The notes beneath the pieces are model-generated. The model did no database searches, was not told the DNA's origin, and was given only the letters and a program-made list of their open reading frames with translations. A program made the position numbers and the translations under genes. From an uncultured Bacteroidota bacterium (GTDB lineage Bacteria > Bacteroidota > Bacteroidia > Chitinophagales > Chitinophagaceae), in the NCBI GenBank assembly GCA_903865435.1, contig CAIPJS010000002.1, positions 1 through 64,000 of the forward strand: a stretch of DNA of 64,000 bases, in the 5' to 3' direction. Below, one piece after another: positions 10,866 to 52,002 of this stretch (position 1 is its first letter; the number at the start of each line of letters is the position of its first letter).

Positions 10866-11546
10866 ATGAAAACCAAGGTTTTATTCTTATTTGCGCTACT
10901 GCTTAGCCTTCAAGTGCAGTCCCAAAGCAATTCAACTTCTTCAATAACAAATACCAAGGGTTGGAAAAATTTATTTGGTGAAAAATTAGAACATGCGCAA
11001 TACGATCCTACTATATGGAAAGATTCTGCAGGCGTATTAACTGCCTCTAAAGATGAATCTATTTGGAGTACAGATATGTATGACGATTTTATTTTAGACT
11101 TAGATTTTCAAACAGCCAATGGAACCAATAGCGGCGTGATTGTACATGCAACAGAAATTAAAGAATGGATACCACATTCTGTTGAAATACAAATTGCAGA
11201 TGATTATTCAGAAGTTTGGGGTAAGGCCGATGCTACTTGGCAATGTGCGGCCATTTTTGGTCATCAAGCAGCGACCAATAAAGATTTAAAAAGACCCGGT
11301 GAGTGGAATCATTATACCATTACTTGTATTGGTAAAAAAATAAACATCGAATTGAATGGAAGATTGGTGAATGAGTGCAATATGGATGATTTTACTTCTA
11401 GTAAAAAAAATCCTAATGGTAGCAACATCCCAGGATGGTTGTACAATCCAATGTCCACCCTTGCATTGCATGGGCATATTGGATTGCAAGGTAAACATGC
11501 TGGTGCGCCTATTTATTTTAGAAATGTTAAAATAAAAACTTTGTAA
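10866..11546 (+). CDS. Secreted DUF1080 (3-keto-disaccharide hydrolase-like) protein
   Basis: The 226-residue protein has a signal peptide ending VQSQ and a concanavalin-like beta-jelly roll typical of DUF1080. Visible family features are GWKNLFGEKLEHA near the start, DFILDLDFQTANGTNSGVIVHA, VEIQIADDY, the GEWNHYTITCIGKKINIELNGRLVNE stretch (seen in parts) and GHIGLQGKHAGAPIYFRNVKIK at the end. Some DUF1080 proteins cleave 3-keto-glycosides made by Gfo/Idh-type dehydrogenases. Its position ten bases before the sugar porter suggests it opens the downstream operon, releasing a sugar in the periplasm for uptake. Confidence 0.88.
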   Translation: MKTKVLFLFALLLSLQVQSQSNSTSSITNTKGWKNLFGEKLEHAQYDPTIWKDSAGVLTASKDESIWSTDMYDDFILDLDFQTANGTNSGVIVHATEIKEWIPHSVEIQIADDYSEVWGKADATWQCAAIFGHQAATNKDLKRPGEWNHYTITCIGKKINIELNGRLVNECNMDDFTSSKKNPNGSNIPGWLYNPMSTLALHGHIGLQGKHAGAPIYFRNVKIKTL

Positions 11547-11555
11547 AAAATAATT

Positions 11556-12959
11556 ATGTCATCAGAACAATCTAAAAAAAATTATATCAACACATTAGCC
11601 ATCATTGCTTCTTTGGGTGGTTTTTTATTTGGATATGACACTGCAGTAATTTCAGGAACAATTAATTTTGTTGCGACTCAATTTAATTTAGATGCGGTGA
11701 GTACAGGCTGGTATGTGAGCTCTGCCTTAATCGGCTGCATCAGCGGTGTGGCTATGGCAGGTATTTTAAGTGATCAATACGGAAGAAAAAAGGTACTTAT
11801 TTTATCTGCTTTATTTTTTGCCGTATCTGCCATTGGTTGCACATTCGCTGTTGGATTTCAAGACTTAGTGGTGTATCGCTTTATAGGTGGATTGGGCATT
11901 GGCGTTGCCTCCATGGTTTCACCTTTGTATATTTCAGAATTATCCCCTGCACATAAAAGAGGACGCTTGGTGGCATTGTATCAATTTGCCATTACGATTG
12001 GGATACTCTGTTCTTATTTTAGCAATGCATATTTACTCAAACTTTCTCATTCTGTTTTTTTACAACACACTACAGGAAATGTATATCAGATAATGGTGGC
12101 AGAAGTATGGAGAATCATGTTAGGCACATCTGCGCTTCCTGCATTTATATTCTTATTGCTTTTACAATTAGTGCCTGAAAGTCCAAGATGGTTGACCATC
12201 CAAAACAAGGAAGTAGAAGCGCTTGCAATTTTACAAAAAATAGTACCCAATGAAGAAGCAAGTAAAGAAATTGCAGACATTAAATCTAATTTAGCCAAAG
12301 AGAGTGGTAGCTTTAGTATTGTTTTTAAAGGCAGTTTTAGATTACCTATGTTGATGGGCATGTCTCTTGCTTTTTTAACACAGATTAGCGGCATCAATGC
12401 CATCATATATTACGGTCCACGTATTTTAGAATCGGCTGGATTGCCTATTGCAGATGCATTAGGGAGCCAGGTGATTATTGGCTTAGTGAATGTCTTGTTT
12501 ACTTTAATTGCTATTTGGAAAATAGATCAACTGGGTCGCAGGCCCTTGTTGATAGCAGGCGTGATAGGCATTTTATCTTCTTTAATTATTGTAGGTGCTT
12601 TATTTTATTTCAATATCAACAATACGTATTTGTTGCTTACTTTTATTTTGTTTTTTATTGCTTGTTTTGCATTCTCTTATGGCCCTGTGATTTGGGTTTT
12701 ACTGTCTGAAATATTTCCAGCTAAAATTAGGGGACAGGCCATGGCCTTGGCTACTTTCACGTTATGGATTGGAACAGCATTGGTAGGACAACTTACTCCA
12801 TTGCTTTTAGAAAAACTACATCCTGCAGGTACGTTCTGGTTATTTGCATTGGTCACTACACCTGCTTTATATTTGTCCATTAAAATTATTCCTGAAACAA
12901 AAGGGAAGAGTTTAGAAGAAATTGAAAATTATTGGATAACTAAAAACGCAAAAAAATAA
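11556..12959 (+). CDS. Sugar porter family MFS transporter (XylE-like)
   Basis: The 467-residue inner-membrane protein has 12 predicted transmembrane helices and all the sugar-porter signatures: GGFLFGYDTAVISG at the N-terminus, SDQYGRKKVL after helix 2, ISELSPAHKRGRLVALYQ, PESPRWL before the central loop, QISGINAIIYYGP in helix 7, DQLGRRPLL after helix 8, and PETKGKSLEEIE at the C-terminus. These proteins take up hexoses or pentoses with protons. The gene lies in a tight row (spacings 4-25 bases) with the SDR, CoA-transferase and hydratase genes, so its substrate probably feeds that pathway. Confidence 0.94.
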   Translation: MSSEQSKKNYINTLAIIASLGGFLFGYDTAVISGTINFVATQFNLDAVSTGWYVSSALIGCISGVAMAGILSDQYGRKKVLILSALFFAVSAIGCTFAVGFQDLVVYRFIGGLGIGVASMVSPLYISELSPAHKRGRLVALYQFAITIGILCSYFSNAYLLKLSHSVFLQHTTGNVYQIMVAEVWRIMLGTSALPAFIFLLLLQLVPESPRWLTIQNKEVEALAILQKIVPNEEASKEIADIKSNLAKESGSFSIVFKGSFRLPMLMGMSLAFLTQISGINAIIYYGPRILESAGLPIADALGSQVIIGLVNVLFTLIAIWKIDQLGRRPLLIAGVIGILSSLIIVGALFYFNINNTYLLLTFILFFIACFAFSYGPVIWVLLSEIFPAKIRGQAMALATFTLWIGTALVGQLTPLLLEKLHPAGTFWLFALVTTPALYLSIKIIPETKGKSLEEIENYWITKNAKK

Positions 12960-12963
12960 TTGC

Positions 12964-13734
12964 ATGAGATTAAAAGATAAAGTAGCCATCATCACGGGCG
13001 CTGCCAATGGCATTGGACTTTCGATTGCAGAAGCGTTCGCAAAGGAAGGGGCTGTGGTAGTATTGGCAGATATTGATGAAAAAAAAGTGTTAGAAGAAGC
13101 CAAACAAATTTCAATATCGGGTGCCATTGCGCTTGGCATTAAATGTGATGTTGGCCATACCGAAGCGGTAAAAAATTTAATTCAAACCGTGATGGGGCAA
13201 TTTGGTAAAATAGATATTTTAGTCAACAATGCAGCCGTAGCCATTGGAGGCAATATTGTAGAGATGCCAGAATCGGATTGGGATACTTTAATGAACATCA
13301 ATTTAAAAAGTGTGTATCGTACCATCAAAGAATCCTTGCCACATATGCTGCAACAAAAATCGGGCAGTGTGATTAATATTTCATCTACACAAGCTTTTCG
13401 TAGTTGGTACAATTGGACAGCCTATGCAGGTGCAAAAGGTGCCATGCTTGCCATGACCAATCAATTGGCTGGACAATTTGGTGCAAGCAATGTTCGTTTT
13501 AATAGCATTTCACCAGGTGCCATCAACACACCTATGAATGCAAAAAGAGCGGAGATAGAAGGCACGGCTTTTTTAGAAAAAAGTGCTGCGCAGCATGCCA
13601 TGAATCGTTTGGGCACTCCTACAGAAGTGGCTATGACTGCGGTTTTCCTTGCATCGGATGAAGCAGGTTTTATTACAGGCGAAGACATTAAAGTGGACGG
13701 GGGCTTATGTACCTTACCACGCTATACAGAATAA
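12964..13734 (+). CDS. Short-chain dehydrogenase/reductase
   Basis: The 256-residue classical SDR has the cofactor motif TGAANGIG near residues 11-18, an Asp after the second beta strand (ADID) that favours NAD, the NNAA motif, and catalytic Ser near 140, Tyr154 and Lys158 (YAGAK). The C-terminus GGLCTLPRY follows the usual DGG motif. It starts four bases after the sugar porter gene and probably oxidises the imported sugar or polyol to a lactone or keto-sugar, a role also suggested by the lactonase-like gene downstream. The exact substrate is unknown. Confidence 0.92.
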   Translation: MRLKDKVAIITGAANGIGLSIAEAFAKEGAVVVLADIDEKKVLEEAKQISISGAIALGIKCDVGHTEAVKNLIQTVMGQFGKIDILVNNAAVAIGGNIVEMPESDWDTLMNINLKSVYRTIKESLPHMLQQKSGSVINISSTQAFRSWYNWTAYAGAKGAMLAMTNQLAGQFGASNVRFNSISPGAINTPMNAKRAEIEGTAFLEKSAAQHAMNRLGTPTEVAMTAVFLASDEAGFITGEDIKVDGGLCTLPRYTE

Positions 13735-13753
13735 AATATAAAGTGTACAAACA

Positions 13754-14968
13754 ATGAAGCAGGCATTAGCAGGTTTAAAAGTGATTGATTTTTCACAATT
13801 GTTACAAGGCCCATACGCCACACAAATGTTGGGCGATTTAGGTGCCGATGTTATTAAAATAGAAAGATATGGTTCGGGTGATATTTATCGTGGCATGACA
13901 TTTTTTAATCAATGGATTGCAGGAGATGAGTCCCCTTGTTTTATGGCTTGGAATAGAAACAAACGTTCTATTGCCATTGACATGAAAAAAGAAGCAGGCA
14001 AGAAAATTATTTTACAATTAATAGAACAGGCCGATATCGTAGTTGAAAATTTTAGACCCGGTGTGATGGAACGTTTGGGTTATGGTTATGAAGCGTTAAA
14101 AAAAATAAATCCAAAAATTATTTATTGTTCTGCATCAGGCTGGGGTAGTGATGGGCCTTATTTAAAAAGACCAGGCCAAGACTTATTGGTACAAAGTGTA
14201 AGCGGCGCGATTATGACGAGTGGAAAAAAATCGGATGGTCCAGTTGCATTGGGTACGGCACTATGCGATCAAGTCAATGCATTTAATTGTGTGTATGCCA
14301 TTTTAGCGGCACTTTATTTTAGAGAAAAAACAGGCATAGGTCAGGAAATACAAACCAATTTACTTTCTTCCGCCATTGCTTTTCAAATGCAGGATTATTT
14401 TACCATTCAAAATATGGGTGTACAATTTGAAAGACCAGAATCGGGTATTGGTCATCCCGGCAATCCAGCACCTTTTGGAACGTATAAAACAAAAGATGGT
14501 TATTTAGCCATTGCCATGAATCCCTTTGCGACATTGGTGGAAGCACTAGGGGATCCAAGTTTGTTGGTGTACAATGACAGTCAGGTTTTGTTTGATAAAA
14601 GAGATGAAATCTATTACCGCATACAAGCTGTCACCATTACAAAAACAACTCAAGAGTGGCTTACAATTATGTTGGGTTATGATTTATGGGTTTCGCAAGT
14701 GAACAGTCAATCGGCAGTGGCCAATGACCCACAAGTGATCCATAACAATACTTTTGTAAACATTCAACATCCTAAAGCAGGAAATTTAAAAGTAACCAAT
14801 ATTCCATTTACGATGAGTGAAACACCAGGGGCCATTACTAGACCTTCGCCTATGATTGGTGAACATGGCCCAGAAATTTTACAAGAATTAGGCTATGACC
14901 AAACCATGATTGATGCTTTATTAAACGATAAAATTATTTCAGTTGAAACATTAAAAGTGAAACAGTAA
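13754..14968 (+). CDS. CaiB/BaiF (family III) CoA-transferase
   Basis: The 404-residue protein shows family III CoA-transferase hallmarks: LKVIDFSQLLQGPYATQMLGDLGADVIKIE at the start (read in parts), NKRSIAIDMK, VVENFRPGVMERLG, and RPGQDLLVQSVSG, whose Asp143 is the residue that carries the mixed anhydride in formyl-CoA transferase. HPGNPAPFGTYKTKDGYLAIA marks the second domain. These enzymes move CoA between carboxylic acids. Finding one inside a sugar uptake operon, immediately before an enoyl-CoA hydratase, implies that a sugar-derived acid may be processed as a CoA thioester. No donor or acceptor can be named from the sequence. Confidence 0.93.
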   Translation: MKQALAGLKVIDFSQLLQGPYATQMLGDLGADVIKIERYGSGDIYRGMTFFNQWIAGDESPCFMAWNRNKRSIAIDMKKEAGKKIILQLIEQADIVVENFRPGVMERLGYGYEALKKINPKIIYCSASGWGSDGPYLKRPGQDLLVQSVSGAIMTSGKKSDGPVALGTALCDQVNAFNCVYAILAALYFREKTGIGQEIQTNLLSSAIAFQMQDYFTIQNMGVQFERPESGIGHPGNPAPFGTYKTKDGYLAIAMNPFATLVEALGDPSLLVYNDSQVLFDKRDEIYYRIQAVTITKTTQEWLTIMLGYDLWVSQVNSQSAVANDPQVIHNNTFVNIQHPKAGNLKVTNIPFTMSETPGAITRPSPMIGEHGPEILQELGYDQTMIDALLNDKIISVETLKVKQ

Positions 14969-14992
14969 AAAAATTATAAAGAAATTTAAAGA

Positions 14993-15772
14993 ATGAAATA
15001 TCAGCATTTACTTTTGGAGATTAATAATAAAATTGCTTGGATTAAGTTTAACAGACCTGATCAATTAAATGCCATGAACGCAGTGATGATGGATGAAATT
15101 ATAGATGCCTTGCAAGTAGTGGATAAGACAAGTAGCCATGAAGTAGCTGTAGTGGTGCTCTCTGGCATGGGTAAAGCTTTTATGGCAGGGGCCGATATTA
15201 AAGAATATGCACAACAAACCCAAAGTGAGTTTGATGCTTTTCAAAAAAAAGGTCATGGTATGTATGCTGCCATTGAAAACAATTCTAAAATAATGATAGC
15301 TGCCTTAAATGGTTATGCTTTTGGTGGCGGCTTTGAAATTGCTTTGGCATGTGATATGATGGTAGCGGCCACAGGAACTAAAATGGGCTTACCCGAAATA
15401 CTTTTAAATTTAATTCCAGGTGGTGGTGGCACACTCCGATTGGCAAGAAAAATAGGTACCAATTTAACCAATGAAATAGTGATGACAGGTCGAACACTAT
15501 TGGCAGAAGAAATGGAAGCAAGCGGCCTGATCAATCACATCTATCCTAGAGAAAACTTTATGGAAAGTGTTACTGAATTTGCAAATAGTTTCGCCAATCA
15601 ATTGCCAGATAGATTGCAGGCCATCAAAGAATTGTCTAATGAAGCATTGAATGGCATTACGCCGACCTTGCAAGCAAAAGAAGCAGCGGCTTTGGGTAAA
15701 TTTTATCAATCTAAAGAAGGGCAGGAAAAAATACAAGCTTTTTACAATAAGAGCCTGGATAAAAAATCTTAG
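14993..15772 (+). CDS. Enoyl-CoA hydratase/isomerase (crotonase) family
   Basis: The 259-residue crotonase-fold protein has the oxyanion-hole segments AGADIKEY and FGGGFEIALACD. Both catalytic Glu positions of true hydratases are occupied (Glu115 and Glu135, the latter in LPEILLNLIPGGGGT). That supports hydration, dehydration or retro-aldol-like lyase chemistry on a CoA thioester rather than simple isomerisation. The gene follows the CoA-transferase by 24 bases and is probably co-transcribed with it. The C-terminal part is helical and of normal length. Substrate unknown. Confidence 0.92.
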   Translation: MKYQHLLLEINNKIAWIKFNRPDQLNAMNAVMMDEIIDALQVVDKTSSHEVAVVVLSGMGKAFMAGADIKEYAQQTQSEFDAFQKKGHGMYAAIENNSKIMIAALNGYAFGGGFEIALACDMMVAATGTKMGLPEILLNLIPGGGGTLRLARKIGTNLTNEIVMTGRTLLAEEMEASGLINHIYPRENFMESVTEFANSFANQLPDRLQAIKELSNEALNGITPTLQAKEAAALGKFYQSKEGQEKIQAFYNKSLDKKS

Positions 15773-15833
15773 AAATCACTTCATTAAATAACATGGCTCT
15801 ATTTTTTCAAAAATTTCTAATCAAGCGTTTCTA

Positions 15834-16976
15834 ATGATTAAACTCAAAGGCATTACTTGGGATCATGCAAGAGGATACGATCCGCTTATAGTTGCTTCTG
15901 CACTGTATTTAAAGGAAACAGGAATACAAATAGAATGGCAAAAAAGATCCCTTACTAATTTTGGAGATCAATCTTTAGAAACACTTGCTCAACAATTTGA
16001 TTTAATTATAATAGATCATCCGCATGTGGGTGTTGCAGAAGCGAGTAATTGTATCACAGCTTTTGATGATTTATTAGATGCTACCCAATTGGAGCAACTC
16101 CAAAAGCATTCAGCAGGCCCTAGCTTTGAGAGTTATCAATATCGTAATAAACAATGGGCATTGCCCATTGATGCTGCCATGCAATGCGCTAGCAGCAGAC
16201 CAGATTTATTAAATGAAGCCTCATTGCCCACTAATTGGGAAGAAGTTTTTGCATTGGCTAATTTTTTAAAGACTAAAAATTTATATGTAGGTATGGCTTT
16301 GTGCCCAACAGATTGTTTATGTAGTTTTTTAAGTCTTACTGCACAATTGGGTTCGCCCATTACTGAAAATAATAAACAATTGGTAGATCCAATTTTGGGC
16401 ATCAAAGCATTGGAGATGCTCCGAAGGATGCGAAATCAATTTCATGCTAAAGCATTGGATTGGAATCCCATTGCTTTGTATGATCATATGTCTAATGAAA
16501 ATGAAATTGCTTATAGCCCACTTGCATTTTGTTATACCAATTATTCTAGAGATGGATTTAGAAAAAATATATTATCCTATCATAATGCACCAACAACAAA
16601 ACAAACCGTTTTAGGAGGTGCAGGCATTGCCATAACAAGTACTTGTACAGAAAAAACAGCAGCAGCCAATTTTGCTGCTTGGATATGTGGCGATTTGATA
16701 CAATCCACCATTTATGTACAAGCGCAGGGTCAACCTGGTAATAAAATGGCCTGGGAAAATACAGCTGCCAATGCACACACAAATAATTTTTTTACACAAA
16801 CGCTTGATACATTAACCCATGCTTATGTAAGGCCTAGATATCAAGGCTGGCCTCATTTTCAGCAGTGGTTAGGTGAAAAAATACATGCTTTTTTATTGCA
16901 CGATACCTCTGCAGAATTGCTTTTAAAAACATTAGAAGCAGGGTATCAAAACTCTTATCAATTTCAAAATAAATAA
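15834..16976 (+). CDS. Extracellular-solute-binding-protein-like protein without signal peptide
   Basis: The 380 residues have the layout of a periplasmic binding protein family 1 fold: LIIIDHPHVGVAEASN in lobe one, WALPIDAAMQ, LLNEASLPTNWEEVFALANFL in the hinge region, and a C-terminal AAWICGDLIQSTIYVQAQGQPGN segment. These match ABC sugar-binding proteins. It starts directly at MIKLKGITWDHARGYD with no signal peptide or lipobox, and no ABC permease or ATPase gene is nearby. It may therefore work as a cytoplasmic ligand-binding protein, or the true start may differ. It is embedded between the hydratase and lactonase genes in the same orientation. Confidence 0.75.
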   Translation: MIKLKGITWDHARGYDPLIVASALYLKETGIQIEWQKRSLTNFGDQSLETLAQQFDLIIIDHPHVGVAEASNCITAFDDLLDATQLEQLQKHSAGPSFESYQYRNKQWALPIDAAMQCASSRPDLLNEASLPTNWEEVFALANFLKTKNLYVGMALCPTDCLCSFLSLTAQLGSPITENNKQLVDPILGIKALEMLRRMRNQFHAKALDWNPIALYDHMSNENEIAYSPLAFCYTNYSRDGFRKNILSYHNAPTTKQTVLGGAGIAITSTCTEKTAAANFAAWICGDLIQSTIYVQAQGQPGNKMAWENTAANAHTNNFFTQTLDTLTHAYVRPRYQGWPHFQQWLGEKIHAFLLHDTSAELLLKTLEAGYQNSYQFQNK

Positions 16977-16983
16977 TTTAGCA

Positions 16984-18093
16984 TTGAACACAGTGAAGGA
17001 TACTTATATTTTATATGTGGGCACTTATACCGAAATGATTGATGAAAATTTTGGAGGGCATGGTGCGGGCATCAATTGTTTTGAATTTAATGCAAGTACT
17101 GGTGAATTAAAATTATTAAATCAAACATTTCAAATTAATCCAAGTTATTTAACAGTTTTTAATTTAAATAATACATCTGAAACTAATGCTGCTGAACCAT
17201 GCTTGGTTGCTGTAGCTGAAGTAGTTGCTTCCAAAAAACCAGCGTTATATTTTTATTCCATCCATCAAGACCATTCTCTGCATGCATCCTATACAGCATC
17301 TATTAATGGAGGCTGTCCCTGCCAGCTTACTTTTTTTAAAAGTAATGAAGGGGATGCATTTATAGCTATTGCTTGTTATGAAACTGGAAATATCATTGTT
17401 TATGATGTGCATGCAAAAATGGAACCTATTTCAATTCAACATAGTGGTCATAGTCAACACCCTGCAAGACAAACAGCGGCACATGCCCATTGTGTATGTT
17501 TTGATGCAGCAACGAATAAATTACTGGTAGCTGATTTAGGATTGGATCAAGTTGTAGTGTATTCGATACAAAACAATAAGGGAAAGATAGAAGCCACCGA
17601 AATTCAAATCATGCATACACCGGCAGGAAGCGGTCCTAGGCATATTTGTTTTGATAGGAATCAACATTTTGGATTTATTTTGAATGAACTAAATGGCACC
17701 ATTTGCCTAATTATACACGAGCAAGATCAATATTTAATAAAAGATATTTTCCCAAACAATGCACCTAATTCAACTAATGTTGATAGGGGTGCTGCCGCCA
17801 TTCGTGCTTCCGCCAATGGAAAATTTGTATATACAAGTATTAGATCCAACAATACCATCAGCTTGTATGCATTGGATCCAATAAAAGCATCTCTTGATTT
17901 TATCGAAGCCTATCCAACAGGAGGCGATACGCCAAGGGATTTTACCTTAGATCCAACAGGCAATTGGCTTTTAGTGGGCCATCAATATTCAGATACAATC
18001 AGCATTTTTAATGTAAATTCATACAATGGAAAGCTGAGTTTGTTTAAAATAGTTGAAAATATAAATTCACCCGTTTCTTTTTCATGGGCCTAA
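16984..18093 (+). CDS. Lactonase-family beta-propeller protein (6-phosphogluconolactonase-like)
   Basis: The 369-residue protein lacks a signal peptide and reads as a seven-bladed propeller of the YbhE/Pgl type: YILYVGTYTEM at the start, AAHAHCVCFDAATNKLLVADLG, GSGPRHICFDRNQHFGFILNEL, and a final blade GDTPRDFTLDPTGNWLLVGHQ (read in parts). Members hydrolyse sugar lactones. No ATG is available near the conserved start, so translation probably begins at TTG 16984 or GTG 16993. Behind an SDR and a sugar porter, a lactonase fits oxidation of a sugar to its lactone and then to the acid. Confidence 0.85.
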   Translation: MNTVKDTYILYVGTYTEMIDENFGGHGAGINCFEFNASTGELKLLNQTFQINPSYLTVFNLNNTSETNAAEPCLVAVAEVVASKKPALYFYSIHQDHSLHASYTASINGGCPCQLTFFKSNEGDAFIAIACYETGNIIVYDVHAKMEPISIQHSGHSQHPARQTAAHAHCVCFDAATNKLLVADLGLDQVVVYSIQNNKGKIEATEIQIMHTPAGSGPRHICFDRNQHFGFILNELNGTICLIIHEQDQYLIKDIFPNNAPNSTNVDRGAAAIRASANGKFVYTSIRSNNTISLYALDPIKASLDFIEAYPTGGDTPRDFTLDPTGNWLLVGHQYSDTISIFNVNSYNGKLSLFKIVENINSPVSFSWA

Positions 18094-18108
18094 ATAAAAT
18101 AAATAGCA

Positions 18109-19152
18109 ATGCAAAATAATAACATCATTCAAAAATGTGGCATCACCGATGATTGGTCTTATAAAGGGATGAAAGTGGTTTATCTAGAAAATGCTTTTTT
18201 ACGCATTGGTATATTGGCTGATCGCGGTGCAGATATTTTTGAATTTAAATACAAGCCTTTACAACTAGATTTTTTATTAAGATTGGAAAAAGGAATCAGC
18301 AATCCTGCGCAAGAATTTTCTCAAATGAGAAATACGAGCAATCAATTTGAAGATTATTATTATGGAGGCTGGCAGGAGATGCTTCCTAATAGTCCAGCTT
18401 TTAATTATAGAGGTGCTTCTTTAGGATTGCATGGAGAAGTTGCATTAATTCCATGGAACTATGCTATTGTAAAAGATACTCCGGATGAAGTTGCTGTTAA
18501 ATTTTGGACACGTCCTTTAAGAATGCCCTTGCTTATCGAAAAAATAGTAAGCATTAAGAAAAACAGTACTCAATTAAATATCTCAGAACAACTCACCAAT
18601 GAAAGTGCTACTCATTTAGACATCATGTGGGGGCATCATATTGCATTTGGACTTCCTTTTTTAAATGAAGGTGCCCATATTGAAACCAATGCTAAAACAA
18701 TGGAAGTACATAATGAAATTCCTGCACCACGGAGATTCAAGTCTGGTAAGACATATCAATGGCCCCATGTAGAAGATGCTTCAGGAAAAATGATGGATGC
18801 AAGCATTATTCCAGATACAGCTGCCCCTGCTTATAGCGATCTTGCATTTCTAACTAATTTTAAAACAAATAACAATAAAGCTTTTTATTCCATTACCAAT
18901 CCAAAACAAAAAGTGGGTTTTAAAGTAGAATGGGATGCCTCTGTTTTTAAATGTTTGTGGTTATGGCAAGAAAGAAATGCAACGCAAGATTTTCCATGGT
19001 GGGGCAAATGCTATACGGTAGCATTAGAACCTTGGACATCTAAATTTACCAATGCGCCCAATGAAGCCATCAATAATGGAGAATGGTTGCACCTAAGTGC
19101 AGGCGAAGTGGTTACTACTAGTTTGACAGCTGGTGCTTTTGAAAAAGTATAA
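18109..19152 (+). CDS. DUF4432 / aldose-1-epimerase-like protein
   Basis: The 347-residue cytoplasmic protein has the galactose-mutarotase-like beta sandwich: LRIGILADRGADIFEFKYK near the start, YYYGGWQEMLPNSPAF, LGLHGEVALIPWNY, LDIMWGHHIAFGLPFL and GWE-less C-terminal strands. DUF4432 members bind monosaccharides and may be mutarotases or sugar isomerases. The conserved His and acidic positions (LHGE, WGHH) are present. It closes the tight gene run that starts at the DUF1080 gene and probably acts on the same sugar. Confidence 0.82.
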   Translation: MQNNNIIQKCGITDDWSYKGMKVVYLENAFLRIGILADRGADIFEFKYKPLQLDFLLRLEKGISNPAQEFSQMRNTSNQFEDYYYGGWQEMLPNSPAFNYRGASLGLHGEVALIPWNYAIVKDTPDEVAVKFWTRPLRMPLLIEKIVSIKKNSTQLNISEQLTNESATHLDIMWGHHIAFGLPFLNEGAHIETNAKTMEVHNEIPAPRRFKSGKTYQWPHVEDASGKMMDASIIPDTAAPAYSDLAFLTNFKTNNNKAFYSITNPKQKVGFKVEWDASVFKCLWLWQERNATQDFPWWGKCYTVALEPWTSKFTNAPNEAINNGEWLHLSAGEVVTTSLTAGAFEKV

Positions 19153-19299: not shown

Positions 19300-20079
19300 A
19301 TGAAATATATACAAAAAACAATTTTACTAAGTTTATTCATTCTTGGATCTTCTTATCATTCATTTGCACAAAAACAGTTCAATGCTTTACTTGTAACCAC
19401 TACAAGAGGTTGGCATCATGAATCTATACATGCAGGTGTACTAGCCATTCAACAGTTAGGTGTTAAACATAATTTTAATGTAAACTTATTAGAAGACAAC
19501 TATGGTTTTACAGATAAAACTTTATCCAATTATCAAGTAGTGATATTTTTAAATACCACTGGTGATATTTTAAACAATGAGGAACAAAAAGTAATGGAGC
19601 GCTTTATTCAATCTGGTAAAGGGTTTATGGGCATTCATAGTGCCTCTGATACAGAGTATGATTGGGCATGGTATACACAACTCGTTGGAAGAATGTTTCA
19701 TATACATCCTGCTATTCAGTCGGCTCGTTTAAATGTGCTAGATGCTTCTTTCCCTGGGCTTGAAGGTTTTGCGAATAATAAACAATGGACAGACGAGTGG
19801 TATGAATTTGGTCCAGATCAAGTAAAAGATTTAAAAACAATATTATCGGTTGATGAAAAATCATATGACCCTAAAGCAGATTGGGCAGCTAATCCACAAA
19901 GAGCAGCGGTATCAGGAAAAGGCATGGGTGCCTTTCACCCCATTGCATGGTACCATAATTTTGATGGAGGCCGTGCATTTTATACCAATCTTGGTCATGT
20001 GCCAAGCGACTTTACAGATCCAACCTATTTAAGTCATATTACTGCTGGCATTATTTGGGCTGCTACTGGGAAAAAATAG
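19300..20079 (+). CDS. Secreted ThuA domain protein
   Basis: The 259-residue protein has a signal peptide ending HSFAQ, then one ThuA domain: FNALLVTTTRGWHHESIHAG, a class-I glutamine-amidotransferase-like fold, the IHSASDTEYDW motif near residues 108-118, and a C-terminal HNFDGGRAFYTNLGH that is strongly conserved in the family. ThuA proteins are linked to trehalose and 3-keto-sugar utilisation, and often accompany DUF1080 and Gfo/Idh proteins as here. It lies 147 bases after the DUF4432 gene, so it may have its own promoter. The biochemical reaction of this family is only partly known. Confidence 0.88.
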   Translation: MKYIQKTILLSLFILGSSYHSFAQKQFNALLVTTTRGWHHESIHAGVLAIQQLGVKHNFNVNLLEDNYGFTDKTLSNYQVVIFLNTTGDILNNEEQKVMERFIQSGKGFMGIHSASDTEYDWAWYTQLVGRMFHIHPAIQSARLNVLDASFPGLEGFANNKQWTDEWYEFGPDQVKDLKTILSVDEKSYDPKADWAANPQRAAVSGKGMGAFHPIAWYHNFDGGRAFYTNLGHVPSDFTDPTYLSHITAGIIWAATGKK

Positions 20080-47091: not shown

Positions 47092-47871
47092 TTATAAAGC
47101 CCTGTCTAAATGTACATAGCCGCCATCCACATGTATCAGCTGACCAGTCGTATGGCTTGATTTTTCAGACAATAAAAAAGCTACGGTATGGGCAATTTCC
47201 TCTTTGGTGGTGAAACGGTTGCCTAATGGAATTTTTGTAAGTATGGATTTTAATTTTTCTTCGGGATTAGGCAAGTTGTTGATCCATTTTTCATATAAGG
47301 GCGTAAAACATTCTGCGACAATCACTGCATTGACACGGATGCCATATTTTAATAATTCCACAGCCCATTCTCTTGTGAGTGCATTGCGCCCCCCATTGGC
47401 TGCAGCATAAGCCGAAGTACCTCCTTGTCCTGTTTCTGCTGTCTTTGAATTGATGTTGACAATATTGCCTTTTGATTTTTTTAAATAGGGTAGGGCATGA
47501 TGCGCTAATAAATAATAGTGCACTAAATTTTTATGCATGCTTTGCATAAATAATTCATAGTTGCCATTTTCTAAACCAACACTATCGTTTTCTCCTGCAT
47601 TATTTACCAAGCCGTCTATCTGGCCATATTTGGTAATTATTTTATTGATGGCCTGTTCACATTCAAGAGGATTGGTTAATTCTGCTACCACCTGATCGGC
47701 TTGAAAACCTTGTTGTTGAATCAATTTTACCAATATCAAATTATGTTCTTCACTTCTTCCTATAATAATGGGCAGGGCTCCTTCTGCTGCCAAGACATTC
47801 GTGATGCCTTCGCCAATACCTCTGGCACCACCAGATACTATGATAATCTTTCCTTGTAATTGTAAGTCCAT
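47092..47871 (-). CDS. SDR dehydrogenase with Asn at the catalytic Lys position
   Basis: The 259-residue SDR has GGARGIG (14-20), NNAGEND (90-96), Ser142, and Tyr155, but the YxxxK motif reads YAAAN, so position 159 is Asn. The C-terminus DGGYVHLDRAL is complete, and no frameshift is visible, so the gene is not obviously broken. By context it would be the sugar or keto-acid dehydrogenase of a non-phosphorylating L-fucose-type pathway. Whether it is active with Asn159 or uses another Lys is not clear. It is three bases upstream-adjacent to the amidohydrolase gene, in one operon. Confidence 0.88.
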   Translation of the reverse strand: MDLQLQGKIIIVSGGARGIGEGITNVLAAEGALPIIIGRSEEHNLILVKLIQQQGFQADQVVAELTNPLECEQAINKIITKYGQIDGLVNNAGENDSVGLENGNYELFMQSMHKNLVHYYLLAHHALPYLKKSKGNIVNINSKTAETGQGGTSAYAAANGGRNALTREWAVELLKYGIRVNAVIVAECFTPLYEKWINNLPNPEEKLKSILTKIPLGNRFTTKEEIAHTVAFLLSEKSSHTTGQLIHVDGGYVHLDRAL

Positions 47872-47874
47872 ATT

Positions 47875-48702
47875 TTAAAGTTTATAAAATTTTATTGCAT
47901 TGCTTGCAAAAAAAGCTTCTTGTTCGTTTTGGTTAAATGTATTGAAATAATTTTGTACAGTGTTTAACCATTTTGAATAGGTACTCGCCACCAAACATAC
48001 AGGCCAATCGCTTCCAAACATTATCCGATTGGTTCCAAAAGCGGCTACCACCAAATCTAGGTAAGGTTTTAGATCGTCCATCGTCCAGCTTTCCCAATTT
48101 GCCTCGGTTGCCATGCCACTTATTTTACAATAGACATTGGGGTTTTGAGCAATTTGGATGATTTCTTTTTTCCAGTTTTCTATTGCTCCTTTTTTGATAT
48201 TGGGTTTAGCGATATGATCTATAACAATAGGTAATGTTGGCAAATGTTTGACCAATTCATTTGCTTCTTTTAATTGATGGGCATTGATCAATAAATCATA
48301 TGTATAATGATGCGTATTTACTATTTTTAATCCATTGATAAAATTGGTTTGTAACATAAATCCGTCGGCTTCGTCTTGCAAAACATGTCTAAAACCTTTT
48401 AGTAAATTTTGCTTAGTGTATTTTTCTAATGTTTGCTCCATTTTTGGATCGCATACATCTATCCAACCAACAACTCCTTGTATAAAAGGAAACTGATTTG
48501 CTTGCGCTAATAAGAATTCTGTTTCTTCTTTACTTTGAGCTGCTTGCACACTAATGCATCCATCAATCTTGTTTTCTTTTAATAGGGGAGCTAAGTCTGC
48601 TGGTAAAAAATCTTTTTGAATGGCCTGCATGTCTTGATTGATCCAATCTTGTTTTTTGGCTTCGTATTTCCAAAAGTGTTGATGTGTATCAATAATTTTC
48701 AT
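47875..48702 (-). CDS. Amidohydrolase-2 family lactonase (L-fuconolactonase-like)
   Basis: The 275-residue TIM-barrel protein begins MKIIDTHQHFWKY with the metal-binding HxH at 7-9. It has VVGWIDVCDP, GFRHVLQDE, VIDHIAKPNI near 195-205 and the terminal motif FGSDWPVCL with catalytic Asp. This is the layout of sugar-lactone hydrolases such as L-fuconolactonase and L-rhamnono-lactonase. In the gene order here it would open the lactone made by a dehydrogenase. Five bases separate it from the FAH-family gene upstream. Confidence 0.88.
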   Translation of the reverse strand: MKIIDTHQHFWKYEAKKQDWINQDMQAIQKDFLPADLAPLLKENKIDGCISVQAAQSKEETEFLLAQANQFPFIQGVVGWIDVCDPKMEQTLEKYTKQNLLKGFRHVLQDEADGFMLQTNFINGLKIVNTHHYTYDLLINAHQLKEANELVKHLPTLPIVIDHIAKPNIKKGAIENWKKEIIQIAQNPNVYCKISGMATEANWESWTMDDLKPYLDLVVAAFGTNRIMFGSDWPVCLVASTYSKWLNTVQNYFNTFNQNEQEAFFASNAIKFYKL

Positions 48703-48707
48703 GCTTC

Positions 48708-49556
48708 TTATTGTTGATAAGCCACCACTGTTTGTTTGCTTACGCCTAATCCATCAATACCTAACTCTACTACATCGCCTGGCTTTAAATAAATATTGGG
48801 GCTAAAGCCCAAACCCACACCAGCAGGGGTTCCCGTACTAATTACATCACCTGGTAATAAAGTCATAAAGTGACTGCAATAAGAAATAAGTTGTGGAATA
48901 TTAAATATTAAATCATCGGTATTGCTGTCCTGCATCATTTTCCCATTTAAACTCAACCACAATCTTAATGCATGTGGATTAGGAATTTCATCTTTGGTCA
49001 CCAGCCATGGGCCCAGTGGCGCAAAACTATCACAACCTTTTCCTTTGTCCCAAGTACCACCTCTTTCTAATTGAAATGATCTTTCACTTACATCGTTGTG
49101 CAATACATAACCTGCTACATAATCCATGGCTGCTGCTTCGGTTACATAACTTGCTTTCTTTCCAATGACTACTGCCAACTCTACTTCCCAATCTGTTTTT
49201 TCTGAATTTTTTGGAATGATGATAGGATCAAAAGGGCCTGTTAATGAGGTAGTGGACTTCATAAATAAAATTGGCTCAGTTGGAATGGCTGCTCCTGTTT
49301 CTTTGGCATGCTTGGCATAATTTAACCCAATGCATAAAATTTTTGAGGGCCTTGCTACGGAAGATCCTATTCTTTCCCTATCGTTAATGGGAACTAATTT
49401 TTCTTTAGCAATTACTGCAGTTAATTTTTCTATACCTTGATTCGTGAAAAAACTTTCATCGTAATCTTTTACAAATGGGCTCACATCATAATTCTTACCA
49501 TCAATGTGCACGCCTGGTTTTTCTTGTCCTTCTTTTCCAAATCTGATTAATTTCAT
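48708..49556 (-). CDS. Fumarylacetoacetate hydrolase family protein (2,4-diketo-3-deoxy-acid hydrolase-like)
   Basis: The 282-residue protein has the FAH-family catalytic domain from about residue 70: ILCIGLNYAKHAKETGA, EPILFMKSTTSLTGPFDPI, the metal-binding DWEVELAVVIG, GYVLHNDVSERSFQLERGG (read in parts) and VISTGTPAGVGLGF. In the non-phosphorylating L-fucose pathway a member of this family splits 2,4-diketo-3-deoxy-L-fuconate into pyruvate and L-lactate. The neighbouring SDRs, lactonase and dehydratase make that the best reading. Other diketo acids are possible. Confidence 0.9.
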   Translation of the reverse strand: MKLIRFGKEGQEKPGVHIDGKNYDVSPFVKDYDESFFTNQGIEKLTAVIAKEKLVPINDRERIGSSVARPSKILCIGLNYAKHAKETGAAIPTEPILFMKSTTSLTGPFDPIIIPKNSEKTDWEVELAVVIGKKASYVTEAAAMDYVAGYVLHNDVSERSFQLERGGTWDKGKGCDSFAPLGPWLVTKDEIPNPHALRLWLSLNGKMMQDSNTDDLIFNIPQLISYCSHFMTLLPGDVISTGTPAGVGLGFSPNIYLKPGDVVELGIDGLGVSKQTVVAYQQ

Positions 49557-49571
49557 TCTATTTCTTTTTTC

Positions 49572-50336
49572 TTAACTATTTAATGTAACGAATCCTCCAT
49601 CAATTGCATAATCGCTTCCTGTAATAAACCCTGCTTCGTCACTACACAAATACAATACTTGATGAGCAATTTCTATGGGTTTGCCCATTCTTCCAATGGG
49701 TTGTGTTTTAGATAATTTTTCAAACATTTCCGTTTCTTGCCCAGGGTAATTCTTTTTTAAAAATCCATCTACAAATGGCGTATGCACTCTGCCTGGTGAT
49801 AGGCTATTGCATCTAATGCCGTCTTTGATAAAATCCTTTGCTACACTTAATGTCATTGCATGCACAGCACCTTTGCTCATACCATAAGCAAAACGATCGG
49901 ATACACCCACTTTGGCAACAATTGAACTAATATTTACAATCGAACCACCACCTGCTTTTTGCATTAAGGGGATGCCCGCATGCAAACTATTGTAAACGCC
50001 TTTTACATTCACATTAAATATTTTTTCAAAATCTGCTTCGTGGGTATTGATGGCATTCCCAATATGAGAGATGCCTGCACAATTGACCATGATATGCATG
50101 TTCCCAATGCTTGCATATGCTTGTACCATTGCACTTTGATTGGTCACATTTATTTCGATGGCATTGGCTTGGCCCCCTTCTTTTATAATTGCTTGCACTG
50201 TTGCTTCGGCTTGATCTTTATTTAGGTCCAATACAAATACTTTTGCACCTTGTTTTGCAAGTACATTACAAACTTCTTTTCCTATGCCACTTCCGCCACC
50301 AGTAACTACCGCTATTTTATTATTTAGTAAAAACAT
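49572..50336 (-). CDS. SDR oxidoreductase (2-keto-3-deoxy-sugar-acid dehydrogenase candidate)
   Basis: The 254-residue classical SDR has TGGGSGIG (12-19), Asp37 after the second strand that favours NAD, NCAG near 85-88, Ser137/138, and a normal YGMSK motif with Tyr151 and Lys155. The C-terminal ITGSDYAIDGGFVTLNS is complete. It lies between the FAH hydrolase and dehydratase genes with 14-16 base gaps. In this operon it would oxidise 2-keto-3-deoxy-fuconate to the 2,4-diketo acid. The alternative is that it is the entry sugar dehydrogenase and the Asn159 SDR does the later step. Confidence 0.92.
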   Translation of the reverse strand: MFLLNNKIAVVTGGGSGIGKEVCNVLAKQGAKVFVLDLNKDQAEATVQAIIKEGGQANAIEINVTNQSAMVQAYASIGNMHIMVNCAGISHIGNAINTHEADFEKIFNVNVKGVYNSLHAGIPLMQKAGGGSIVNISSIVAKVGVSDRFAYGMSKGAVHAMTLSVAKDFIKDGIRCNSLSPGRVHTPFVDGFLKKNYPGQETEMFEKLSKTQPIGRMGKPIEIAHQVLYLCSDEAGFITGSDYAIDGGFVTLNS

Positions 50337-50349
50337 ATTTTTTTATTTT

Positions 50350-52002
50350 TTATAAGGATACACCTCTTTTCCAAGGAATAAAATCGTCTTGTTGCAATTG
50401 AACTGCTTTTGGAATGACTTCTCCGCTTGCTGCAAGAATGCAATAATCTAAAATCTCTTCACCCAGTTGTTCGATGGTTTTAATGCCATCAATAATTTCA
50501 CCAGTGTTGATGTCGATGATGTCTGACATTCTATTGGCGAGTTTTGTATTGGTGGCTACTTTAATTACTGGACAAACTGGATTGCCTGTGGGTGTGCCTA
50601 ATCCAGTAGTGAATAAAATTAAAGTTGCACCACTTGCTGCTTTTCCAGTAGTGGCTTCTACATCATTGCCAGGCGTACACACTAAGCTCAAGCCTGCTTT
50701 GGTAGCTGGTTCGGTGTAATCCAATACATCTACCACTGGCGCTGTGCCCCCTTTTTTACAGGCACCTGCACTTTTAATGGCATCGGTAATTAAGCCATCT
50801 TTAATATTTCCTGGAGAAGGATTCATGTGAAAACCACTTCCAACAGCATGCGCCATTTTATTGTAGTCTTCCATCAATCGAATAAATTTATTGGCAATTT
50901 TTTCATCCACACATCTGTCTATTAATTCCTGTTCTGCTCCACACAATTCTGGAAATTCTGCCAATAAAATTTGACCACCCAATGCCACCAATAAATCTGC
51001 AGTATGGCCCACGGCTGGATTGGCAGAAATTCCACTAAAGCCATCACTGCCGCCACATTTTACCCCAATACATAATTTGCTTAAGGGCGCTGGTTTTCTT
51101 TCTATTTTATTTACTTCAATTAATTCTTTGATGGTGGCTTGTATGGATGCTTTTATTAACTGCTCTTCGCTTTGTGCTTGTTGTTGTTCAAATACAATGA
51201 GCGGTTTGTTAAATTTTGGATTTCTTTGTTTCAGGTCATTTTTAAAATCATCAATTTGCAAATGTTGACAGCCTAAACTTAATAAGGTAATGCCTGCCAC
51301 ATTAGGATGATCGGCATAAGCTGCCAATAAATCACTAAGTGTTGCGGCATCTTGTCTAGTGCCACCGCAACCTCCATTGTGGTTCAAGAATTTGATGCCG
51401 TCTATATTTTTAAACACCCTTTTGTTTTGGATGGGGGCGCATGCAGCTTGTTCATCTATGATGCTATTTTTCTCATTGCCCATATTATTCACTACTTGCT
51501 CTGCAAATGTTTTGTATTTGTCTGTGATGGTATATCCCAATGCATAATGCAATGCTTCTTTAATTACATCTAAGTTTCTATTTTCACAAAATACAGTTGG
51601 AATGAATAACCAATAATTGGCAGTACCTACTTTTCCATCATTGCGGTGGTAGCCATTGAAATTTTTATTTTCATATTTAGTAATGACGGGTGCCTGCCAT
51701 TGGTATTTTGCATTTCTATAAGCATAGGCATCTGCTTCATGTTTGGTATTTTCAACCGACATTCTTTCGCCTACTGCAACCTGATTGGTTGTAATTTTAC
51801 CTACTGTAATGCCATACATGGTAATGAGTTCGCCCTTTGACAAAGGCTGTATAAAAAATTTATGTTTCTCTGCTATATCTTCTTTTAAGCTATAAGTTTG
51901 TTGATGGTAAACAATGACATCCCCTTTTTTTAAATTGGCTAAGGCAACCAACACATTGTCCTTGGGATGTATTTGCAAAACAAGTTGCTTTTGAATGCTC
52001 AT
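50350..52002 (-). CDS. UxaA/GarD-family sugar-acid dehydratase (altronate/fuconate dehydratase-like)
   Basis: The 550-residue protein joins an N-terminal SAF domain (about 1-95, LVALANLKKGDVIVY) to the large UxaA/GarD domain with HRNDGKVGTANYWLFIPTVF, NHNGGCGGTRQDAATL, LCIGVKCGGSDGFSGISANP and PTGNPVCPVIKVATN, containing the Cys residues associated with iron binding. Relatives dehydrate altronate or galactarate to 2-keto-3-deoxy acids. As first gene of the reverse operon it would dehydrate the aldonate made by the lactonase. L-fuconate is inferred from the accompanying enzymes; an enolase-type fuconate dehydratase is absent. Confidence 0.9.
   Translation of the reverse strand: MSIQKQLVLQIHPKDNVLVALANLKKGDVIVYHQQTYSLKEDIAEKHKFFIQPLSKGELITMYGITVGKITTNQVAVGERMSVENTKHEADAYAYRNAKYQWQAPVITKYENKNFNGYHRNDGKVGTANYWLFIPTVFCENRNLDVIKEALHYALGYTITDKYKTFAEQVVNNMGNEKNSIIDEQAACAPIQNKRVFKNIDGIKFLNHNGGCGGTRQDAATLSDLLAAYADHPNVAGITLLSLGCQHLQIDDFKNDLKQRNPKFNKPLIVFEQQQAQSEEQLIKASIQATIKELIEVNKIERKPAPLSKLCIGVKCGGSDGFSGISANPAVGHTADLLVALGGQILLAEFPELCGAEQELIDRCVDEKIANKFIRLMEDYNKMAHAVGSGFHMNPSPGNIKDGLITDAIKSAGACKKGGTAPVVDVLDYTEPATKAGLSLVCTPGNDVEATTGKAASGATLILFTTGLGTPTGNPVCPVIKVATNTKLANRMSDIIDINTGEIIDGIKTIEQLGEEILDYCILAASGEVIPKAVQLQQDDFIPWKRGVSL

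Follow-up and report, generated by a model that had tools for sequence, protein, structure and literature searches.

A class III CoA-transferase, a crotonase and a signal-less binding protein in a sugar operon of an uncultured Chitinophagaceae bacterium: a candidate CoA-cycling route for the dehydration of sugar acids

The 64,000-nucleotide stretch of DNA analysed here (the window; positions 1 to 64,000 of contig CAIPJS010000002.1, assembly GCA_903865435.1) comes from an uncultured member of the Chitinophagaceae (Bacteroidota) and contains an operon in which genes for a class III coenzyme A (CoA)-transferase and a crotonase stand among genes of sugar-related families. An original prediction, made from the sequence alone, had named eight genes that run in one direction with mostly small gaps, and their positions, common direction and close spacing were borne out by the list of open reading frames and by Pfam searches, with gaps of 4 to 61 bases (from the DUF1080 gene to the DUF4432 gene, in order: 9, 4, 19, 24, 61, 7 and 15 bases). 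A ThuA gene follows the DUF4432 gene after a gap of 147 bases and is probably outside the operon core. The genes are listed below together with their Pfam matches and with the roles proposed for them.

10866..11546, + strand: DUF1080 protein, similar to 3-keto-disaccharide hydrolases (3keto-disac_hyd, PF06439, 112.6 bits)
11556..12959, + strand: MFS sugar porter (Sugar_tr, PF00083, 380 bits; TIGR00879 above cut-off), proposed sugar import
12964..13734, + strand: SDR dehydrogenase (Pfam; NCBIfam PRK07231 'glucose 1-dehydrogenase' subfamily above cut-off), proposed oxidation of the aldose to the lactone (aldose 1-dehydrogenase)
13754..14968, + strand: CaiB/BaiF class III CoA-transferase of the PGQD clade with Asp143 (CoA_transf_3, PF02515, 365.8 bits)
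14993..15772, + strand: crotonase with Glu115 and Glu135 (ECH_1, PF00378, 192 bits), proposed aldonoyl-CoA dehydratase
15834..16976, + strand: signal-less cytosolic homologue of sugar-binding proteins (SBP_bac_8, PF13416, 34 bits)
16984..18093, + strand: 7-bladed lactonase (PF10282, 236.6 bits), proposed aldonolactone hydrolysis
18109..19152, + strand: DUF4432 protein, similar to aldose 1-epimerases (PF14486, 88.5 bits), proposed mutarotase
19300..20079, + strand: ThuA-domain protein (PF06283, 216 bits)

The transferase gene is the only CoA_transf_3 gene of the window genome, and its product matches the domain over the full length (profile positions 1 to 365 of 366). Asp143, which had been singled out beforehand, was found aligned with the GxD position of formyl-CoA transferases, where the Asp is the catalytic residue, and the column holds Asp in all 62 further CaiB-type proteins aligned. 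The motif around this residue, PGQD (PGLD in one of the 63 aligned rows), characterizes the clade to which the protein belongs. In the crotonase, both Glu residues expected from the original prediction, Glu115 and Glu135, which are the catalytic pair of hydratases, were recovered by alignment to solved hydratases.

The nearest named relatives found were two Sediminibacterium metagenome assemblies (loci L039 and L040; L and G numbers are our own handles for loci and genomes). Conservation of the gene order had been put forward as a check, and the order MFS, SDR, CaiB, crotonase, binding protein, lactonase and DUF4432 was the same in both assemblies. The DUF1080 gene was not present upstream of the porter gene in either of them; it is a variable attachment of the operon and was dropped as a core member of the pathway. 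Identity to the window proteins in the two loci was 95% for the transferase, 89-91% for the porter, 82-83% for the SDR, 78-79% for the crotonase, 78% for the DUF4432 protein, 70-72% for the binding protein and 53-55% for the lactonase. Between species the transferase thus keeps 95% identity where the neighbouring proteins of the operon share 53-91%, which may reflect either an unusually strong constraint or a recent transfer. As a side observation, the DUF1080 (10866-11546) and ThuA (19300-20079) genes bracket the operon and a ThuA gene also lies near the module of Streptomyces L062; both families occur in 3-keto-glycoside systems.

The distribution of the transferase clade was compared with that of the binding protein in 395 sampled Bacteroidota genomes. 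The binding protein was found in 19 of them, the window genome counted, and the profile of the transferase clade scored 516-577 bits in 19 genomes, the next match reaching 360 bits; the two sets of 19 genomes are identical. Of the 18 other Bacteroidota loci, 17 have the two genes side by side, each of these 17 with two transferase genes, and in the remaining genome the pair lies on the same contig at a distance of about 60 kb. Binding protein and transferase form an obligate pair in Bacteroidota. Beyond this phylum the reach of the pair was sampled via plasmid records, of which 22 regions were opened, 14 through matches of the binding protein (from 145 records with a match) and 8 through matches of the transferase. 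Of the 14 regions of the former kind, 13 have the transferase directly beside the binding protein (the unannotated L044 according to an open reading frame search) and L051 has it 4.5 kb away; among the 8 of the latter kind, the binding protein is adjacent in 5 and absent in 3 (L048, L053 and L061). Among 17 annotated pairs from named loci, the two genes overlap in 10, and in the others no more than 19 bases separate them.

The binding protein itself does not have the features of an uptake component. Its N-terminus (MIKLKGITWDHARG) is without a signal peptide, and judged by eye such a peptide is lacking from all 40 sequences of an alignment that covers three bacterial phyla and includes the window, a few of these open reading frames having been called with a longer upstream start. 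Since a signal peptide is lacking, the part in sugar uptake that had been assigned to this protein in the original prediction could not be upheld. ABC permease or ATPase partners were not found among the open reading frames and Pfam matches of the window operon, and in proteobacterial loci such as L041, L043 and L047 the ABC set has a separate binding protein of its own. In an alignment of 24 rows 36 columns are invariant, including T8, W9, H11, R13, D61, H62, P63, D113, Y234, Y237, Q300, R333 and R335. In the PDB the profile matched the trehalose/maltose-binding protein 1eu8 best (4e-19) and other sugar-binding proteins next, and the protein is most likely an intracellular derivative of this family. 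An AlphaFold2 model computed from three sequences was discarded at a predicted local distance difference test score (pLDDT) of 36.

For a control comparison, 48 loci of the PGQD clade (window excluded) and 21 CaiB loci of other Bacteroidota were scored for gene families within 9 kb. A hydratase was present in 44 of the 48 clade loci versus 1 of the 21 controls, a sugar dehydrogenase family in 37 versus 3, a sugar transporter in 26 versus 0, a lactonase in 25 versus 0, enzymes of 2-keto-3-deoxy acids in 16 versus 0 and a mutarotase in 12 versus 0. Three of the four loci scored as lacking a hydratase (L041, L043 and L052) have an annotated MaoC gene just past the 9 kb. The binding protein was counted in 42 of the 48 loci, a circular figure, as the loci had partly been chosen by it. 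Two rows were left out, namely L033, which has no transferase beside the binding protein and whose genome is represented by the pair counted as L199, and L055, the second Sinorhizobium meliloti copy of L044. The comparison is biased toward the clade, whose own loci supplied the queries; these loci are also related to one another, and the controls, mostly the better-scoring ones of 54 lower-scoring matches of the transferase profile, were not a random choice. Despite this bias, the comparison speaks against the refuting outcome named in the original prediction (homologues of the transferase/hydratase pair usually without the sugar genes), since a hydratase and sugar genes accompany the clade and not the controls.

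Operons of related composition were found in distant bacteria and fall into two types. In the E-type module the transferase and the binding protein are joined by an epimerase (DUF4432 or 'aldose 1-epimerase family'), an SDR and an enoyl-CoA hydratase; a lactonase, an enzyme of the FAA family, sugar ABC genes and LacI accompany them in varying combinations. This set is present in Variovorax (L047), Sinorhizobium (L056 and L059), Pararhizobium (L060) and Streptomyces (L062), while the locus of Shinella (L042) has an SMP-30 lactonase and no annotated mutarotase, and a second locus of Martelella in L050 has the set without the binding protein; genes annotated as 'aldose 1-epimerase family' occur in the equivalent operons of L047, L050, L056, L059, L060 and L062. 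Since so unusual a combination of genes is shared by bacteria as distant as Streptomyces and alpha- and betaproteobacteria, it probably represents a real pathway. A survey of the family gave a transferase match in 44 other genomes, from which seven new loci were opened (L196-L198 and L200-L203). Beside these modules two further genes were seen, an M24 (Xaa-Pro peptidase-like) gene between transferase and crotonase at L196:10169-11347 and a gene annotated as Xaa-Pro peptidase near the module of L060.

The M-type is a sister module in loci resembling those for L-fucose and L-rhamnose, in which a MaoC hydratase replaces the crotonase. Its parts are a Gfo/Idh/MocA dehydrogenase, a protein of the L-rhamnose mutarotase family, an amidohydrolase-2 lactonase, one or two transferases, the binding protein and MaoC, accompanied by IclR, RhaT, MFS or ABC genes. 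M-type loci include L021-L032, L036-L038, L041, L043, L045, L046, L049, L050, L052 and L054, not all of which have the full set of parts. In L021 the best models, both below cut-off, were L-fucono-1,5-lactonase for the lactonase and 2,4-didehydro-3-deoxy-L-rhamnonate hydrolase for the FAA protein. Both modules have enzymes, often of unrelated families, for the steps that precede CoA, and their constant element is the transferase, usually together with the binding protein. The tree of the PGQD clade has two halves with full support in the Shimodaira-Hasegawa-like approximate likelihood ratio test (SH-aLRT). By its transferase, which groups with that of Shinella L042 (SH-aLRT 98) inside the E-type half, the window operon is assigned to the E-type; its binding protein groups with those of Bacteroidota M-type loci (SH-aLRT 81), and these differing affiliations point to a mixed history of the operon. 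Two side observations concern the wider family. Bacteroidota M-type loci (L022, L023, L027-L032, L036-L038, L045 and L046) carry after the transferases a second signal-less homologue of the binding protein, SBP2, of about 410 amino acids, and the haloarchaeal plasmids L048 and L061 encode a PGQD-type transferase and MaoC without a binding protein, with crotonase, SMP-30, ligase or glycerate kinase genes nearby.

The aldose dehydrogenase and lactonase families of non-phosphorylative sugar oxidation are present in the window operon (the SDR and the 7-bladed lactonase), and among the open reading frames and Pfam matches between 10866 and 20079 there is no aldonate dehydratase. We infer from this context a non-phosphorylative sugar route in which dehydration takes place on a CoA thioester and CoA cycles catalytically, a reading to which a probability of about one half (roughly 0.52) is given. 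The sugar would enter via the MFS porter, be mutarotated by the DUF4432 protein and be oxidized at C1 by the SDR to a lactone, which the lactonase would open to the aldonate. The transferase and the cytosolic binding protein would then load CoA onto the aldonate, the binding protein presumably holding the sugar acid for the transferase. The thioester would acidify the C2 proton, the crotonase would remove water across C2-C3, and the resulting enol would tautomerize to a 2-keto-3-deoxy acyl-CoA. Finally, the transferase would hand the CoA to the next aldonate and free the 2-keto-3-deoxyaldonate, so that CoA would be used catalytically as with CaiB/CaiD, and the transferase/crotonase pair would stand in for a metal-dependent sugar-acid dehydratase. 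The original prediction had proposed that a sugar is oxidized to a lactone, hydrolysed to an acid, joined to CoA and then cleaved or dehydrated. It is partly supported: the sequence from sugar through lactone and acid to CoA thioester is favoured by the comparative genomics, the part of the binding protein in uptake is not, and the preference for dehydration over cleavage is what we infer here.

The class of the hydratase follows the presumed sugar, with MaoC in the fucose/rhamnose-type loci. The hydratase domain of PaaZ is of the MaoC type. L-Fuconate and L-rhamnonate are 3R acids, and D-gluconate, D-galactonate, D-xylonate and L-arabinonate are 3S. These acids have the same order of priorities at C3 as 3-hydroxyacyl-CoA, so that the hydratase class matches the presumed sugar. 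Since crotonases act on (3S)-hydroxyacyl-CoA, the substrates predicted for the E-type are aldonates that are S at C3 (D-gluco, D-galacto, D-xylo and L-arabino type), and acids that are R at C3, L-fuconate and L-rhamnonate among them, suit the MaoC sister module. The formation of (3S)-hydroxyacyl-CoA by crotonases and of (3R)-hydroxyacyl-CoA by PaaZ-type hydratases is described in passages of PMC9007349. More tentatively, and with somewhat less confidence than in the route proposed for the window, the two modules together may form a CoA-cycling type of aldonate dehydratase, made up of a PGQD transferase, a substrate-presenting binding protein and a hydratase chosen by C3 configuration, which would stand beside the enolase, IlvD and UxaA families and might span Bacteroidota, Pseudomonadota and Actinomycetota as well as, without the binding protein, haloarchaea.

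Enzymes for the expected 2-keto-3-deoxy product occur beside the module in three contexts in which an aldonate dehydratase is the main part missing, namely the L196/L197 operons, the FAA-bearing E-type loci and the M-type diketo loci. The operon of L197 contains, in this order, the transferase, a crotonase, a GH88-like protein, an MFS protein whose best models, below cut-off, were HpaX and the D-galactonate transporter family, a PfkB protein similar to 2-keto-3-deoxygluconate (KDG) kinase (below cut-off) and a member of the 2-keto-3-deoxy-6-phosphogluconate (KDPG) aldolase family. In L196, SDR, transferase, crotonase and binding protein are accompanied by a kinase and an aldolase of these two families. 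The modules of L047, L050, L060 and L062 have an FAA-family neighbour; in L060 this protein is very similar to 9kkt and related to 2q18, a 2-keto-3-deoxyarabinonate dehydratase. FAH-family 2-keto-3-deoxypentonate (KDP) dehydratases in bacterial pentose pathways are reported in passages of PMC6336799. M-type loci such as L021, L036 and L203 have SDR and FAA proteins that resemble the 2,4-diketo-3-deoxy route, the FAA proteins of loci such as L021 and L203 being similar to 2,4-diketo-3-deoxy-acid hydrolases. The cycling of CoA is further supported by a CoA ligase gene (AMP-binding, like CaiC of the carnitine operon) next to the module in L058 and L061.

The cleanest case for the module replacing a dehydratase is the finished genome G343, in which an M-type module (L036) is adjoined by the flanking enzymes of such a path. 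Its enolase-superfamily matches are the enolase and two non-dehydratase types, the two non-enolase MR_MLE matches being 76-81% identical to proteins best modelled by NCBIfam as racemase/epimerase and o-succinylbenzoate synthase. The single IlvD match is presumed to be biosynthetic, and the sole UxaA belongs to a uronate locus that also encodes UxaC, a mannitol-dehydrogenase-family protein, a KDG-kinase-like PfkB protein and a KDPG aldolase. Among the three families searched (enolase, IlvD and UxaA), G343 has no other candidate aldonate dehydratase. Further genomes were not used as dehydratase-free cases, as they carry other enolase-superfamily genes. In the window genome, genes of the DapA family and for an aldehyde dehydrogenase on contig C14 were set aside as lying among housekeeping genes.

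Several observations weigh against CoA-cycling dehydration in the window operon. According to Pfam, the operon has no CoA ligase and no enzyme for 2-keto-3-deoxy acids. The best solved relative of the SDR is BbsD, a hydroxyacyl-CoA dehydrogenase, with glucose 1-dehydrogenases further down the match list, and the SDR may itself be a hydroxyacyl-CoA dehydrogenase. The window crotonase shares 47% identity with that of L196 and only 30-38% with most of the others, so that the transferase/crotonase pair was assembled more than once or diverged far. The binding protein is not needed by every member, because it is missing from several E-type loci (L048, the second locus of L050, L053, L061, L197 and L198). 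Classical dehydratases also coexist with the module. L196 has a UxuA-like gene, which the kinase and aldolase of that locus may serve; the M-type loci L041, L043, L049 and L052 have an annotated L-fuconate dehydratase at their edge; G025, G170 and G324 encode, away from the module, a UxaA-type dehydratase together with SDR and FAA proteins; G222 and G316 have second UxaA matches; and in the window genome a UxaA-type gene (50350-52002) and a second IlvD-type gene are present. The view that the module takes the place of a classical dehydratase in every carrier was rejected, since several have both, and the module may serve another stereoisomer or a reaction such as epimerization. The UxaA-type gene of the window is part of a minus-strand cluster (47092-52002) of SDR, amidohydrolase-2, FAA hydrolase, SDR and UxaA-type dehydratase, whose composition suggests a diketo pathway for L-fucose/L-rhamnose that uses a conventional dehydratase.

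Cleavage in place of dehydration is an unlikely alternative, in which the crotonase would act as a hydratase-lyase and split the aldonoyl-CoA between C2 and C3 into glycoloyl-CoA and an aldehyde two carbons shorter, with CoA passed on or glycolate released. The crotonase superfamily includes lyases such as hydroxycinnamoyl-CoA hydratase-lyase, this enzyme is among the weaker solved relatives of the window crotonase, and aldehyde dehydrogenase genes are direct neighbours of the crotonase gene in L034 and L035 and lie near it in a Jannaschia locus. An aldehyde dehydrogenase may, however, instead oxidize the aldose; none was found by Pfam in the window operon or is annotated at L042, L047, L056, L059, L060 and L062. 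Cleavage would also leave the 2-keto-3-deoxy-acid enzymes of the same operons unexplained, and the crotonase is replaced in the sister module by MaoC-type enzymes, among which we know of no lyases of the hydratase-lyase kind. Marginally less probable is a short beta-oxidation-like module for a hydroxylated acid, with the SDR as 3-hydroxyacyl-CoA dehydrogenase next to CoA-transferase and crotonase, comparable to the benzylsuccinate or deoxyribonate pathway. The relationship of the SDR to BbsD agrees with it, as does the CoA-bound deoxyribonate pathway proposed from Klebsiella fitness data in passages of PMC6365646, but a thiolase or acyl-CoA dehydrogenase is neither encoded in the window operon nor annotated at the six loci just named, and lactonase, mutarotase and sugar transporters would go unexplained.

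Slightly less probable still is that the CoA thioester serves to epimerize the sugar acid at C2 or C3, by dehydration and rehydration or by alpha-racemization, and so feeds an ordinary dehydratase elsewhere in the cell. Alpha-methylacyl-CoA racemases are among the relatives of CaiB, and the presence of classical dehydratase families in many carriers, the window genome included, would be accounted for. G343 offers no follow-on candidate among the three families searched, and on chemical grounds a 2-hydroxy-enoyl-CoA is expected to tautomerize and not to rehydrate. That unrelated acyl-CoA genes came to lie inside a sugar operon by chance is very improbable: the divergence of the crotonases indicates that the pairs were not all inherited as one block, but the perfect co-occurrence of transferase and binding protein in the 395 genomes, the recurrence across phyla and the control comparison already disfavour it, barring grossly biased sampling.

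The proposed CoA-cycling route combines known kinds of chemistry, the CoA cycling of CaiB/CaiD and non-phosphorylative sugar oxidation, with a cytosolic binding protein as its unusual part. In the carnitine system, CaiB and CaiD interconvert L-carnitine and crotonobetaine while CoA is exchanged between substrate and product (passages of PMC3680233). Like caiTABCDE, the window operon holds a class III CoA-transferase and a crotonase in one operon (here 24 bases apart), as a transferase and hydratase core without thiolase or acyl-CoA dehydrogenase; unlike it, the operon lacks betaine genes and a CoA ligase (CaiC-like genes being present in L058 and L061) and has sugar porter, dehydrogenase, lactonase, mutarotase and cytosolic binding protein. 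With the non-phosphorylative aldose pathways (pentose and L-fucose/L-rhamnose diketo routes, as outlined in passages of PMC6336799) it shares the dehydrogenase and lactonase families, and some of its relatives hold 2-keto-3-deoxy-acid enzymes, but the CoA-transferase/hydratase pair stands where an IlvD, enolase or UxaA dehydratase would be expected. The transferase has its closest solved relatives in succinate-hydroxymethylglutarate and formyl-CoA transferases, whereas its clade is distinct, with PGQD at the catalytic Asp and mostly in sugar loci. The binding protein shares sequence family and best PDB profile matches with ABC sugar-binding proteins (trehalose/maltose-binding, LpqY and SmoF), yet it is signal-less, without permease and ATPase, and paired with a CoA-transferase. 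In the full-text literature searched, most subscription journals lying outside its scope, no description of the module was found. The nearest precedent, as far as passages of PMC6365646 describe it, is the deoxyribonate route of Klebsiella michiganensis, in which a sugar acid is likewise proposed from fitness data to be handled as a CoA thioester; it uses other enzymes, cleaving by means of a CoA synthetase, a hydroxyacyl-CoA dehydrogenase and a thiolase, and neither synthetase nor thiolase is present in the window operon.

Sugar-acid dehydratases define the annotation of non-phosphorylative sugar pathways. If the proposed route is correct, loci annotated as acyl-CoA or 'ABC transporter' genes would be sugar pathways that are missed by pathway-prediction tools, and a 'binding protein' would have been turned into the partner of an intracellular enzyme. 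The prediction of crotonase for 3S and MaoC for 3R acids makes this reading testable with a few aldonates.

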